Origin: Collinsella tanakaei
GTDB lineage: Bacteria > Actinomycetota > Coriobacteriia > Coriobacteriales > Coriobacteriaceae
NCBI RefSeq assembly: GCF_021531055.1
Contig: NZ_JADYTL010000001.1
Location: forward strand, 248,001 to 312,000
Reading direction: 5' to 3'
Length of the DNA: 64,000 nucleotides
Below the pieces are notes generated by a model. The model saw only the letters and a list, made by a program, of their open reading frames with translations, was not told where the DNA came from and made no database searches. The translations under genes were made by a program, and so were the position numbers. Shown piece by piece: positions 46,179-50,730 of the stretch (its first letter is position 1; each line of letters opens with the position of its first letter).

Positions 46179-47549
46179 CTAGCGGAGCAGACCCGCGACC
46201 TCGCCGGCGAGGGTGATCGTTCCGGCGGCAACGACGGGCATGGAGGCGCGCGTCAGGGCTTCGAGCGCCTCGCGAACCGATCCGTAGGACCCCACGATAT
46301 CCGACGCACCCCTCCCCTGTCGCGCAAGCTCCGCGGCGACGAGATCTCCGAGCTCATCTTGGGGCAGCGCGCGATCCGAGGCGGTCACGGTGACGACGAT
46401 GCGGGGGAACGCCGGCACGAGGATACGCACGATGCCGGCGACGTCCTTGTCGGCAAGCGCCGCGATCAGCAAGGTCGGGCGACGGGACATGTCCGGATCG
46501 ATGCCGTTAAGCGCGGCGACGAACTGCTCGCAGCTCTGCGGATTATGACAGGCGTCGACCAGCACGAGCGGCTCGGTGCGGACAATATCGAATCGGCCCG
46601 GCGTCGGGCATGCCGTCAAGCTCGCGTTCAAGGCACCTTCATCGAGCGTGCGCCCGAGATAGGCCTCCGTGAGCATGATCGCGCAGGCGGCGTTTTGGGG
46701 TTGGTACGTCGGCTTGGGCATACGCACCGTATAGGTAGCGCGCACCGTAGGACAGCAGAACTCGACATCGGCTCCGAGCGCATGCGGCACCGCGATGGTG
46801 CGATGCTCGACGATGAGCGGCTCGACGTCGCAGGCACGGCATCGTTCGTCCATGACGGATTGAACCGACGGCTCGTGCGTCCCCTCACCGAGCACGACGA
46901 TACGGCCCGGCTTGATCACCGCGGCCTTCTCGGCGGCGATCTCGGCGAGCGTATCGCCGAGGATCCGCATATGGTCGAGGCCGATCCCCGTGATGGCGAC
47001 CGCGACCGGATCGGTGGCGCTCGTCGCATCCCAACGTCCGCCCATGCCCACCTCGAGTACGGCGACGTCGACCTTCGCCTCGGCGAAGATGACGAGTGAC
47101 GCGACGGTCAACAGGTCGAACGGGGTGATCGTATAGGCGCGGTCGCCCGCCGCCGCGCGTGTAGCGTTGACGCGCCGTCCCGCTTCGACGGCGACCGAGA
47201 CACCGTGGGCGAACGCCGCATCCGAGACGACGCGACCGTCGATCTCCATGCGCTCGGGATAGCGCACGAGCTGCGGCGAGGTGTAGAGCGCGCAGCGAAG
47301 CCCCTCGCCGCGAAGGATCGCTGCGGCGAATCGCGTCGTGGACGTCTTGCCGTTGGTGCCGGCGACCTGCAGGCAGTCGTAATGCTCATCGGGGCGCTCG
47401 AGCTCGTCGAGCATATCGACGACCGTCTCGAGCAGCGGCCCTGCATCCCCCGAGATCTTGCCGGTGTCGGCGGCGAGCTCCACAGCCTCGTCGAAGGATA
47501 GCTCGCTGACCGCGAACGGCACGCGATAGGCGCCTGAGCGCTTGGGCAT
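46179..47549 (-). CDS. folC: Folylpolyglutamate synthase / dihydrofolate synthase family
   Basis: 456 residues. The Mur-ligase P-loop is LQVAGTNGKTSTTRF (about 82-96). YTSPQLVRYPERMEIDG is the folate loop of FolC. VLEVGMGGRWDATS and TGIGLDHMRILGDTL are family signatures, and VDACHNPQS lies in the C-terminal domain. It adds glutamates to folates. It lies after valS, a common order in Gram-positives, but a repeat-rich spacer separates the two here. Confidence 0.93.
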   Translation of the reverse strand: MPKRSGAYRVPFAVSELSFDEAVELAADTGKISGDAGPLLETVVDMLDELERPDEHYDCLQVAGTNGKTSTTRFAAAILRGEGLRCALYTSPQLVRYPERMEIDGRVVSDAAFAHGVSVAVEAGRRVNATRAAAGDRAYTITPFDLLTVASLVIFAEAKVDVAVLEVGMGGRWDATSATDPVAVAITGIGLDHMRILGDTLAEIAAEKAAVIKPGRIVVLGEGTHEPSVQSVMDERCRACDVEPLIVEHRTIAVPHALGADVEFCCPTVRATYTVRMPKPTYQPQNAACAIMLTEAYLGRTLDEGALNASLTACPTPGRFDIVRTEPLVLVDACHNPQSCEQFVAALNGIDPDMSRRPTLLIAALADKDVAGIVRILVPAFPRIVVTVTASDRALPQDELGDLVAAELARQGRGASDIVGSYGSVREALEALTRASMPVVAAGTITLAGEVAGLLR

Positions 47550-47898
47550 GGATGATCAACTCCTACGTTTCCCGTGATCCGGAGTGTTGCTGACAAGGCG
47601 CGTCACCCGGGCGGCCGACAGAGCTGGCCCAGGTGCTCGAAATAGCCAGAAGGAGGAAGGATCGCGACCTGAACGCGACAGCCGAGCCAACCCCACGGCC
47701 GGCCCAGGTGCCGCAGATTGCCGCGAAGGAGGGCATAGACCTTCGGTCATGCCCGACGATTAAGCGGCAAGGTGCGGTGCCCGGAGCGACCGACAAGGCT
47801 GGCCCAGGTGCCCAAGGTCGCCCTGAAAGAGGAGGGCATAGGCCTTGAGGGCCATGCCCGACGATTGAAGGGCGAGATCGGGTACCTGGAGATGCCGA
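47550..47898. other. 349-bp valS-folC spacer
   Basis: Mostly filled by the stem-loop array at 47626-47889. The 76 bp next to folC contain no clear promoter. The open frames here (for example plus 47633-47848) are short and change frame between repeat copies, so I call no gene. Confidence 0.6.
47626..47889. repeat. Degenerate tandem array of stem-loop elements (about 2.7 copies)
   Basis: GGCCCAGGTGC starts at 47626, 47701 and 47801. Copies 2 (47704-47784) and 3 (47804-47889) each fold into three nested helices. Outer: CCAGGTGCCGCA with TGCGGTGCCCGG, versus CCAGGTGCCC with GGGTACCTGG. Middle: TTGCCGC with GCGGCAA, versus TCGCCCT with AGGGCGA. Inner: GGGCAT-a-GACC with GGTCATGCCC, versus GGGCAT-a-GGCC with GGCCATGCCC. 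The 3' internal loop GACGATTRA is conserved. The middle and inner helices differ by compensated changes. G-U pairs occur when the plus strand is read as RNA. Copy 1 is more divergent but still forms a hairpin. Confidence 0.7.
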
Positions 47899-50595
47899 CT
47901 AGGCGAAGTCGGAGAGTTGGGCGGTCAGCGCCGCGATCTCGGCCTCGAGCTCGGCGGCGCGCTCGCGCTTCTTGGCCACGACCTCAGGCGCCGCCTTGGC
48001 GATGAAGCCCTGATTGGACAGGGTCTTGTTCGCACTCGCGAGCTCCTTCTCGTTCTTGGCGATGGCCTTCTCGATGCGCGCCTTCTCGGCGGCGAAATCC
48101 ACGAGGTCGCCCACGACCACGTACGCATCGAAGTCGGGGCCGGCAAGCGCGATCGCCGCGTCGGGCTTCGCGAAGCCATCCTCACCGGCGAACGTGAGCT
48201 CGCTCACGTTCGCCAGGTTGCAGATGAAGCCGTTCATGCCGTCGATGGCCTGCGCCGCCGCATCGGTATGGGCGCACACGACGACCGGCAGCGCCTCCTT
48301 GGGGCTGATACGGTAGCGGGCGCGCGTGGAGCGCACGTCGATGACCACGGCACGGGTGAGCTCGAAGGCGCGCTCGGCGGGCTCGTCGATCCAGCGCTCG
48401 TAGTCGGCGGGCTCGGGCCACGCGGCGACCATGAGGGCGTCGGCGCGCTCCCCGTCCATATCGAGGCAGCTCGCCGGCATGGCGTCCCAAATGGCCTCGG
48501 TAACGAACGGCATGAGCGGATGCATGAGGCGCAGGCTCGTATCGAGGACGAAGATGAGGTTGCGCTGCGCCTGAGCACGGGCGCCGTCGTCCTTCAGGCG
48601 GGCCTTGGTGACCTCGACGTACCAGTCGCAGACCTCGTTCCAGAAGAAGGCCTGGATACCGCGGGCGACATCGCCGAACGTGTACCCCTCGATACCCTCG
48701 GTCACGGACTTCACCATCTTGGCGAGACGGCTGAACATCCACGCGTCGGCGGCGGTCTCGGCGACCGGCTCGCCCGGCGTGTAGCCTTCCATGTTCATGA
48801 GGAGGAAGCGGCTCGCGTTCCAGATCTTGGTCACGAACGCGCGCGCCTGCTCGGTGCGGGGGCTACCCAAGAATTCATGGGTCTTCTTGTCGATATCGGC
48901 GTCGAACTTGACGTCCTGGTTGTTGGTGAACAGCGACAGCAGGTTGAAACGCATGGCGTCGGCGCCGTACTTGTCCATGAGGTCCATGGGATCGACGCCG
49001 TTGCCCTTGGACTTGGACATACGGCTGCCGTCCTTGGCGAGGATCGTGGGATAGATGACGACGTCACGGAACGGCTCCTCGCCCAGGAAGTACTCGGAGC
49101 TCATGATCATACGGGCGACCCACAGCGCGATGATGTCGCGCGCGGTGACGAGCGCCGTGGTGGGATGATGGCCCTCAAGCGCCTTGGGATTCTGCGGCCA
49201 ACCCTGCGTCGCGAAGGTCCACAGCTGGCTGGAGAACCAGGTATCGAGCACGTTCTCGTCCTGATGCACGTGGTGACCGCCGCACTTCGGGCACACGTCG
49301 GCGTCCTCCATGAGTGCGTCCTCCCAGCCGCAGTCCTCGCAGTAGAACACGGGGATGCGGTGGCCCCACCACAGCTGGCGGGAGATGCACCAGTCCTTCA
49401 GGTTCTCCATCCACGTGAGATAGCTCTGCTTCCAGCGATCGGCGTTGAAGCGCACGCGACCGGACTCGACGGCGTCGATAGCGGGCTGCTTGAGCTTGTC
49501 GACCGCGACGAACCACTGCTCGGACAGCCACGGCTCGAGCGTGGTGTCGCAGCGGTAGCAATGCATGACGGAGTGGTCGTGCTCCTCGATGTGGTCGAGC
49601 AGGCCGTGCTCCTCGAACCACGCGACGACGGCCGCGCGGCACTCGTCGCGGGTCATGCCCGAGAACTCGCCGTAGCCCTCGACCACGACGGCGTGCTCGT
49701 CGAAGATGTTGATCTGCGGCAGGTCGTGCGCCTGACCCATCGCGTAGTCGTTGGGGTCGTGCGCGGGTGTGACCTTGACGAAGCCCGAGCCGAAGCCCGC
49801 GTCGACATGCCAGTCCTCGAAGATCGGAATCTCGCGGTCAACGATGGGCAGCATCACGGTCTTGCCCACGAAGGCGGCCTTCTCGGGATCCTTCGGAGAG
49901 ACGGCAACGCCGGTGTCGCCGAGCATGGTCTCGGGACGCGTGGTGGCGACGACGATGTAGTCCTGGCCGTTCACCGGCTCGGTCAGCGGGTAGCGCAGGT
50001 GCCACAGGTGACCGGATTCCTCCTTGTACTCCGCCTCGTCGTCGGAGATGGCCGTCGTGCAGGACGGGCACCAGTTGACGATACGCTTACCGCGGTAGAT
50101 GAGGCCGTCATGATACCAATCGCAGAAGACCTTGCGGACCGCCTCGGCGTAATCGGCGTCCATGGTGAAGCGCTCGTGCTCGAAGTCGACCGAACAGCCC
50201 ATGCGCTTGATCTGCTCCTTGATGGTGCCGCCGTACTCGTGCGTCCAGTCCCAGCAGGCCTCCAGGAAGGCTTCGCGACCCATCTCGAGGCGGTTCTTGC
50301 CCTCCTCCTTGAGCTTCTTGTCGACCTTGGTCTGGGTGGCGATGCCGGCATGGTCGGTGCCCAAGATCCACTGGGTCGAGCGGCCGCGCATGCGCGCCTG
50401 GCGCACGATGGCATCCTGGATGGAATCGTCGAGCGCATGTCCCATGTGCAGCTTGCCGGTCACATTGGGAGGCGGGATGGTGACGGTGCAGTCGCCCACG
50501 CCCGGACGGCGCTGGTAATAGCCGCCGTCGAGCCACTTCTGCAGGATCTTCGGCTCGTTTTCGGCCGGATCGTATGTCTTGGGCATCTCTTCCAT
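47899..50595 (-). CDS. valS: Valyl-tRNA synthetase
   Basis: 898 residues from the ATG at 50595 (AAAGGGAA 8 nt upstream). PPPNVTGKLHMGHALDD is the HIGH region. The CP1 editing domain and a zinc-like CYRCDTTLEPWLSEQWF segment follow. KMSKS appears as GSRMSKSKGNGVDP. The C-terminus is the ValRS-specific coiled coil (IAKNEKELASANKTLSNQGFIAKAA). It charges tRNA-Val and clears threonine. No T-box was recognised upstream. Confidence 0.97.
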   Translation of the reverse strand: MEEMPKTYDPAENEPKILQKWLDGGYYQRRPGVGDCTVTIPPPNVTGKLHMGHALDDSIQDAIVRQARMRGRSTQWILGTDHAGIATQTKVDKKLKEEGKNRLEMGREAFLEACWDWTHEYGGTIKEQIKRMGCSVDFEHERFTMDADYAEAVRKVFCDWYHDGLIYRGKRIVNWCPSCTTAISDDEAEYKEESGHLWHLRYPLTEPVNGQDYIVVATTRPETMLGDTGVAVSPKDPEKAAFVGKTVMLPIVDREIPIFEDWHVDAGFGSGFVKVTPAHDPNDYAMGQAHDLPQINIFDEHAVVVEGYGEFSGMTRDECRAAVVAWFEEHGLLDHIEEHDHSVMHCYRCDTTLEPWLSEQWFVAVDKLKQPAIDAVESGRVRFNADRWKQSYLTWMENLKDWCISRQLWWGHRIPVFYCEDCGWEDALMEDADVCPKCGGHHVHQDENVLDTWFSSQLWTFATQGWPQNPKALEGHHPTTALVTARDIIALWVARMIMSSEYFLGEEPFRDVVIYPTILAKDGSRMSKSKGNGVDPMDLMDKYGADAMRFNLLSLFTNNQDVKFDADIDKKTHEFLGSPRTEQARAFVTKIWNASRFLLMNMEGYTPGEPVAETAADAWMFSRLAKMVKSVTEGIEGYTFGDVARGIQAFFWNEVCDWYVEVTKARLKDDGARAQAQRNLIFVLDTSLRLMHPLMPFVTEAIWDAMPASCLDMDGERADALMVAAWPEPADYERWIDEPAERAFELTRAVVIDVRSTRARYRISPKEALPVVVCAHTDAAAQAIDGMNGFICNLANVSELTFAGEDGFAKPDAAIALAGPDFDAYVVVGDLVDFAAEKARIEKAIAKNEKELASANKTLSNQGFIAKAAPEVVAKKRERAAELEAEIAALTAQLSDFA

Positions 50596-50730
50596 GCGAA
50601 ATTCCCTTTCTGTTGCGATACACAAGAGATGAGGTTACCACGAATGCATGGGTGCGCCGTGCGAGCAGGCAAGATTAACCGACCGTGCACATGCCGCCCG
50701 TGGGAAATAAGTGCCCGTCCCATGTTCCGG

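Follow-up and report, generated by a model that had tools for sequence, protein, structure and literature searches.

The stretch of DNA analysed here (the window) comprises 64,000 nucleotides of a Collinsella tanakaei contig. According to its list of open reading frames, the gap at positions 47550–47898 is flanked by two genes that both lie on the minus strand: valS (47899–50625), whose C-terminal part matches valine–tRNA ligase models, and the gene next downstream of it (46179–47549), which is probably folC, the name given in the initial annotation and one with which the sequence is in keeping. The gap holds two copies of a hairpin element arranged in tandem on the plus strand, each of which forms one long hairpin. 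Copy A (47701–47788, 88 nt) scores 82.1 bits (E = 1.7e-15) with R1, a covariance model of six copies of this genome, and copy B (47801–47893, 93 nt) scores 93 bits (E = 4.2e-18). Both fold stably on the plus strand (z = -4.68 for A and -7.62 for B), and 0 of 200 dinucleotide shuffles were equally stable. Five nucleotides separate the 3′ end of copy B from the valS stop codon (47899–47901), which the element abuts. In copy B the outer helix, given to the model as structure and present in the fold, joins 47803–47815 to 47878–47890, and the middle helix, evident from sequence and fold, joins TCGCCCT (47818–47824) to AGGGCGA (47869–47875). Next to it lies an internal loop whose 5′ side, GAAAGAGGA (47825–47833), and 3′ side, GACGATTGA (47860–47868), are conserved across the family; judged from the letters, the two sides would face each other as G.A/A.G, A-T, A-T, G.A/A.G, G-C and G.A/A.G, a non-canonical pairing. 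The middle helix of copy A, likewise evident from sequence and fold, consists of TTGCCGC (47718–47724) and GCGGCAA (47764–47770), and its large internal loop lacks 3 nt of the usual length on the 5′ side.

The two tandem copies between valS and folC had been proposed in the initial annotation, and their anatomy is as described there: the middle helices differ as above, the inner helices pair GACC with GGTC and GGCC with GGCC, respectively, the internal loop GACGATTRA is common to both copies and the G-U pairs appear on the plus strand, antisense to valS and folC. A more divergent third copy, supposed to start at 47626, proved to be a remnant at most. The likeness is confined to 47606–47647 on the plus strand, which matches copy B in its spacer and first arm (47781–47822; 76% identity over 42 nt) and forms no hairpin; the stretch at 47626 has a fold z of +0.2 and is without a match to the covariance model. 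Two copies alone would prove little; the family supplies the proof.

The valS–folC hairpins belong to a previously uncatalogued family of folding DNA repeats of about 93 bases. The R1 search, of the kind that the initial annotation had set as its own test, found 12 clear copies in this genome, with tandem pairs at three places (100–105 nt apart), and copies with preserved helices in 41 of 45 Collinsella genomes, at 0 to 45 per genome, a few of these counts scoring one hairpin on both strands. Across the order, copies occur in 107 of 299 genomes; within the same family they are dense, and elsewhere they are few and weak. When 84,980 species genomes were searched for the exact core pattern, the matches listed came only from Collinsella, one Coriobacteriaceae assembly and one Atopobiaceae assembly, and viral contigs gave no match. 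No literature on Collinsella repeats was found. Rfam returned no match to the element even at E 5, save one chance snoRNA hit far below the cut-off, and sub-threshold microRNA hits were discarded, as they lie on unrelated palindromes. The Collinsella-1 RNA motif (RF01700), a family mentioned in the initial annotation, is a different RNA; it is absent from the window and from its genome, and is patchy in the genus, exceeding the cut-off in 21 of 45 genomes. With many intergenic homologs whose helices are kept through compensated changes, the original proposal of a structured RNA or a selected hairpin DNA repeat, as opposed to random spacer, is well supported.

The core of the element is a single rod of about 93 nt. 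From the foot it runs through about 15 bp, a 2×2 purine loop (GR/GR) and 7 bp to the first of up to three tandem G.A steps; A-T pairs separate this from the second, which ordinary pairs may replace, and the third is followed by the inner helix and the apical loop. The non-canonical tandem steps between helices comprise a 5′-UG/UG wobble, GR/GR and two or three GA/GA. Pairing was assessed on 53 dissimilar copies, clustered below 85% arm identity, for 24 outer and middle pairs. Standard pairs fill 95.8% of helix cells, against 31–49% when the partners are slid, both sides have changed in 19 of the 24 pairs, and the covariation score is 0.58, compared with 0.22 for shuffles and 0.09–0.14 for slid structures; the columns of the T18-A80 pair and of the GA flanks, fixed by the pattern used to select copies, are uninformative. 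The purine loops GR/GR and GA/GA stay fixed while the stem sequences turn over. Of 78 copies, 73 retain the GA/GA beside the middle helix. The GR/GR mismatch loop itself covaries: 58 of 66 clusters have GA/GG or GG/GA there, and only 4 have GA/GA or GG/GG (Fisher p = 3e-10). The tandem 5′-UG/UG wobble of the outer helix is kept in 40 of 66 clusters; outside this step the outer helix has G.T over A.C at 61:19, and the middle helix has no such bias (8:9). The plus strand of the element is the better folder in 197 of 200 distinct copies, the mean RNA folding energies being -59.5 kcal/mol for the plus strand and -49.4 kcal/mol for the mRNA strand, about 10 apart. Because the plus strand folds better than its complement in nearly all copies, the target of selection appears to be the folded single strand with the purine loops, be that RNA or DNA.

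The strongest new finding is the placement of the element antisense behind stop codons. Among 197 copies with usable flanks, for which genes were called with a simple codon-usage script, an antisense gene lies at the 3′ side of the element in 167, and 128 copies lie within 50 nt of the stop codon of that gene; random placement within the same gaps gave a mean of 39 and a maximum of 57 in 2000 trials, and copies from closely related strains somewhat inflate the observed counts. Co-directional gene pairs flank 113 of the 197 copies and convergent pairs 54; although convergent genes present a stop codon on either side, 50 of these 54 are closer to the antisense stop. The distances from stop to element fall into two classes, about 0–25 nt and 40–50 nt, and in many copies of the latter a further small hairpin and a spacer, TCGACGCTGC as read from the gene, lie between stop and element. 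A subtype exemplified by L004:1472-1562 and L116:1507-1599 has an extra hairpin of the GTTCCGCGGTTC...GAACCGCGGAAC type with the TCGACGCTGC spacer, at 43–48 nt. Beyond the core, the flanks pair in a gene-specific manner (mean 4.0 bp, against 2.3 in shuffles); the lower stem thereby often reaches the stop, and at some loci the pairing runs into the stop codon. Orientation switches with the chromosome arm: a two-arm split fits 22 of 23 and 29 of 32 copies in two single-contig genomes and roughly agrees with the sampled GC skew, itself noisy, and this arm-wise pattern may partly just reflect leading-strand genes. The host genes are mostly housekeeping genes, including valS, pheS, pheT, aspS, cysS, gyrB, infB, lepA, relA, dnaJ, purH, purA, dapA and arcA. 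A gene-specific regulon, suggested by the frequency of aminoacyl-tRNA synthetase and translation-factor genes (valS, pheS, pheT, aspS, cysS, infB and lepA), was rejected in view of the many other carriers.

Occupancy of individual sites changes rapidly. The valS site is filled in only three of 30 genus genomes, namely this genome and two distant ones, and in relatives that share 90–92% identity in the valS C-terminus the site is occupied by ordinary terminators or other hairpins. The pheS and gyrB sites are filled in 22 and 13 of 30 genomes, respectively; in C. aerofaciens-like genomes their alleles are empty or carry unlike subtypes with different stems and the same loops, and occupancy is patchy even among strains with identical GyrB C-termini. 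One gyrB hairpin, from one draft assembly, is the exact inverse of the copy of its relatives (97 of 97 nt), the adjacent 400 nt being 97.5% identical. This inversion in place at the gyrB 3′ end lies between CTAG ends (G036 relative to G014; L431 versus L441). In some relatives the core is missing and a mini-hairpin is present, with a similar lower stem closed by a short loop; no target-site duplication was seen at empty sites. Flank pairing and retained lower stems point to mutation templated by the palindrome (PMC8794818) and also to gain and loss. Behind the valS stop of C. aerofaciens-like genomes (L160-L174) there is a second long palindrome, GCGGTTTGGGGCTTTGCTCGCTACTGCGGACAGTCC ... CGAGCAAAGCCCCAAACCGC, which may represent another post-stop family.

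Genome G000 has four Y1 transposase genes that resemble RAYTs (REP-associated tyrosine transposases), at C8:234609, C9:168828, C13:139834 and C13:15500 (L188-L191); several of them are flanked by palindromes of their own, and some (CGACAAGATGGTGCCAGGTAC, AATAACCCCAGGGGTTATT) also abut post-stop elements. The RAYT-like genes inspected have their own palindromes, unlike the element. That a RAYT might be the cognate enzyme looked promising from the low counts in genomes without Y1 genes (0–5 elements), but none of 40 scanned Y1 loci is flanked by a genuine copy and the idea was abandoned. One match at such a locus (L195) proved to be the RAYT's own perfect palindrome, with equal scores on both strands.

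The evidence favours a mobile or turning-over repeat rather than a classical regulatory RNA; the family is large, its fold is maintained, its antisense placement behind stop codons is strict and its turnover is rapid. In the reading that we prefer, with a probability of about 0.5, the element is a REP-like, non-autonomous family of interspersed palindromes of Collinsella and its family that is kept behind stop codons, where it would give the mRNA a hairpin at its 3′ end. Its identity as a REP-like repeat is highly probable; the 3′-end mechanism is put forward tentatively. Copies would spread via a folded single-stranded form recognized by a putative enzyme supplied in trans, and might survive behind stop codons where they do little harm, or help. 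At this locus the valS mRNA would meet a stable hairpin directly past its coding part, which could block 3′-to-5′ exonucleases, fix the 3′ end of the transcript and uncouple folC from valS. Acting on mRNA 3′ ends would be the most economical function, because REPs are known to occur no more than 20 bp from the 3′ ends of genes (PMC3733652), and in a GC-rich actinomycete the 3′ ends of transcripts are marked by stem-loops that lack a U tract; stem-loops also protect transcripts ended by Rho (PMC8269248). Because the element is antisense to the gene, the mRNA, if transcription continues past the stop, carries the complement of the well-folding strand. The main point against an mRNA 3′-end role is that this is the weaker-folding strand (197 of 200 copies); the stable tandem U.G and G.A steps, which sit on the non-mRNA strand, also argue against it. 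Against mobility stand the missing link to a mobilizing enzyme (0 of 40 Y1 loci) and the lack of target-site duplications at empty sites.

The same observations bear on several other explanations. The recurrence of copies behind the same genes in several species, often as unlike subtypes (pheS, gyrB, purH, cysS, dapA, arcA and pheT), together with the fixed orientation and stop-codon distance and the conserved fold, would suit a dedicated cis-acting 3′-UTR RNA element, protein-bound or acting as a non-canonical U-less terminator, which particular housekeeping genes need and whose copies were recruited for function and not by selfish spread. We consider this unlikely, given the patchiness between strains with identical GyrB C-termini, the three filled valS sites in 30 genomes, the weaker folding of the mRNA strand and the listed flanks, in which no U tract is seen. 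Replacement of canonical terminators, which the terminators of the valS relatives had suggested, was not borne out either: they occur in 9 of 28 regions against 49 of 214, with no depletion behind the element. The greater stability of the plus strand, its tandem U.G and G.A steps and its outer-helix G.T over A.C ratio of 61:19 would be explained if that strand were transcribed, either as antisense RNA or within the 3′ portion of convergent transcripts, the rod being bound by protein or halting RNA polymerase before it enters the gene in antisense. Convergent genes, between which the plus strand would be transcribed, flank 54 of 197 copies, whereas the 113 copies between co-directional genes would need a hypothetical antisense promoter; with the lack of a G.T bias in the middle helix (8:9) and of a U tract in the listed flanks, this makes the proposal very improbable.

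Much of the covariation could, alternatively, arise incidentally when replication switches template at a palindrome and copies one arm onto the other, so that paired changes need not mean selection on RNA. The mechanism is documented (PMC8794818), and the gene-specific complementarity of the flanks beyond the core (4.0 against 2.3 bp), the gyrB hairpin inverted in place over 97 of 97 nt and the mini-hairpins with a similar lower stem and no core are all consistent with it. Such correction should erase mismatches, but 73 of 78 copies retain GA/GA by the middle helix, and the covariation of the GR/GR loop is non-canonical; nor does the process explain why copies are spread over dozens of loci and sit behind stop codons, and as an account of much of the covariation it is decidedly unlikely. 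The covariation that the initial annotation took as a signature does attest a fold kept across the family, but it is weaker proof of RNA selection than was assumed there, because template switching also yields paired changes (PMC8794818). It is also conceivable, with a rather low likelihood, that the element is a hairpin, selfish or domesticated, which the cell recognizes by its folded antisense strand, a long rod on which tandem U.G, G.R and G.A steps recur at regular spacing; it would spread without its own transposase via replication-linked single-stranded DNA and land behind stop codons in one orientation, its stem extended to pair with the stop region of the gene.

The element represents a large repeat family of common gut bacteria, hitherto uncatalogued and unusually strict in its anatomy. 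Because close relatives have filled, empty, replaced and inverted alleles behind one and the same stop codon, the movement of REP-like palindromes and their possible setting of mRNA 3′ ends can be tested. The family also carries a warning, in that covariation alone, in a palindrome possibly turned over by template switching, need not imply a regulatory RNA.

Among known systems, the Collinsella-1 RNA (RF01700) was described from Actinobacteria and the human gut and occurs in the same genus, but has a 196-position model and other sites. The attC sites of integrons are imperfect hairpins right behind a stop codon that fold as single strands in a strand-specific manner. The element resembles them in its post-stop imperfect hairpin and strand-specific folding, and differs in standing as single copies or pairs behind housekeeping genes, with no cassette arrays; conserved simple-site cores of the attC type were not noticed in the aligned copies. 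Intrinsic terminators have a U tract after the stem-loop, and no T run directly follows the hairpin on either strand of the listed flanks. The U-less (‘I-shaped’) terminators of GC-rich actinobacteria, and their 3′ stem-loops that block exonucleases (PMC8269248), share with the element a stable stem-loop at gene 3′ ends and no U tract; they are not described there as a homologous repeat family, and the element, at most a candidate terminator, has its better-folding strand in antisense. The closest likeness is to the GTAG- and CGTC-tagged REPs and BIMEs (PMC3733652), as the element is likewise a many-copy intergenic palindrome that is often paired and lies near gene 3′ ends. It is not a REP/RAYT system by strict membership, because two defining features are absent: the repeat does not flank the Y1 (RAYT) gene at any of the 40 loci, and in place of a 20–40 nt unit with an unpaired GTAG at its foot there is one of about 93 nt with no conserved foot GTAG. 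No unpaired end tag of any kind was identified on the element, and the only CGTC in it is the complement of the internal-loop GACG. CGTC-tagged REPs have another stem layout (8–9 bp stem, 4–5 nt loop, unpaired CGTC tag) and, like the element as far as could be found, have no transposase dedicated to them (PMC3733652). Compared with the 20–40 nt of REPs and their mostly head-to-head pairs, the element has a core of about 93 nt in which at least three purine loops are conserved, forms head-to-tail tandem pairs and keeps a fixed orientation antisense to the adjacent gene.
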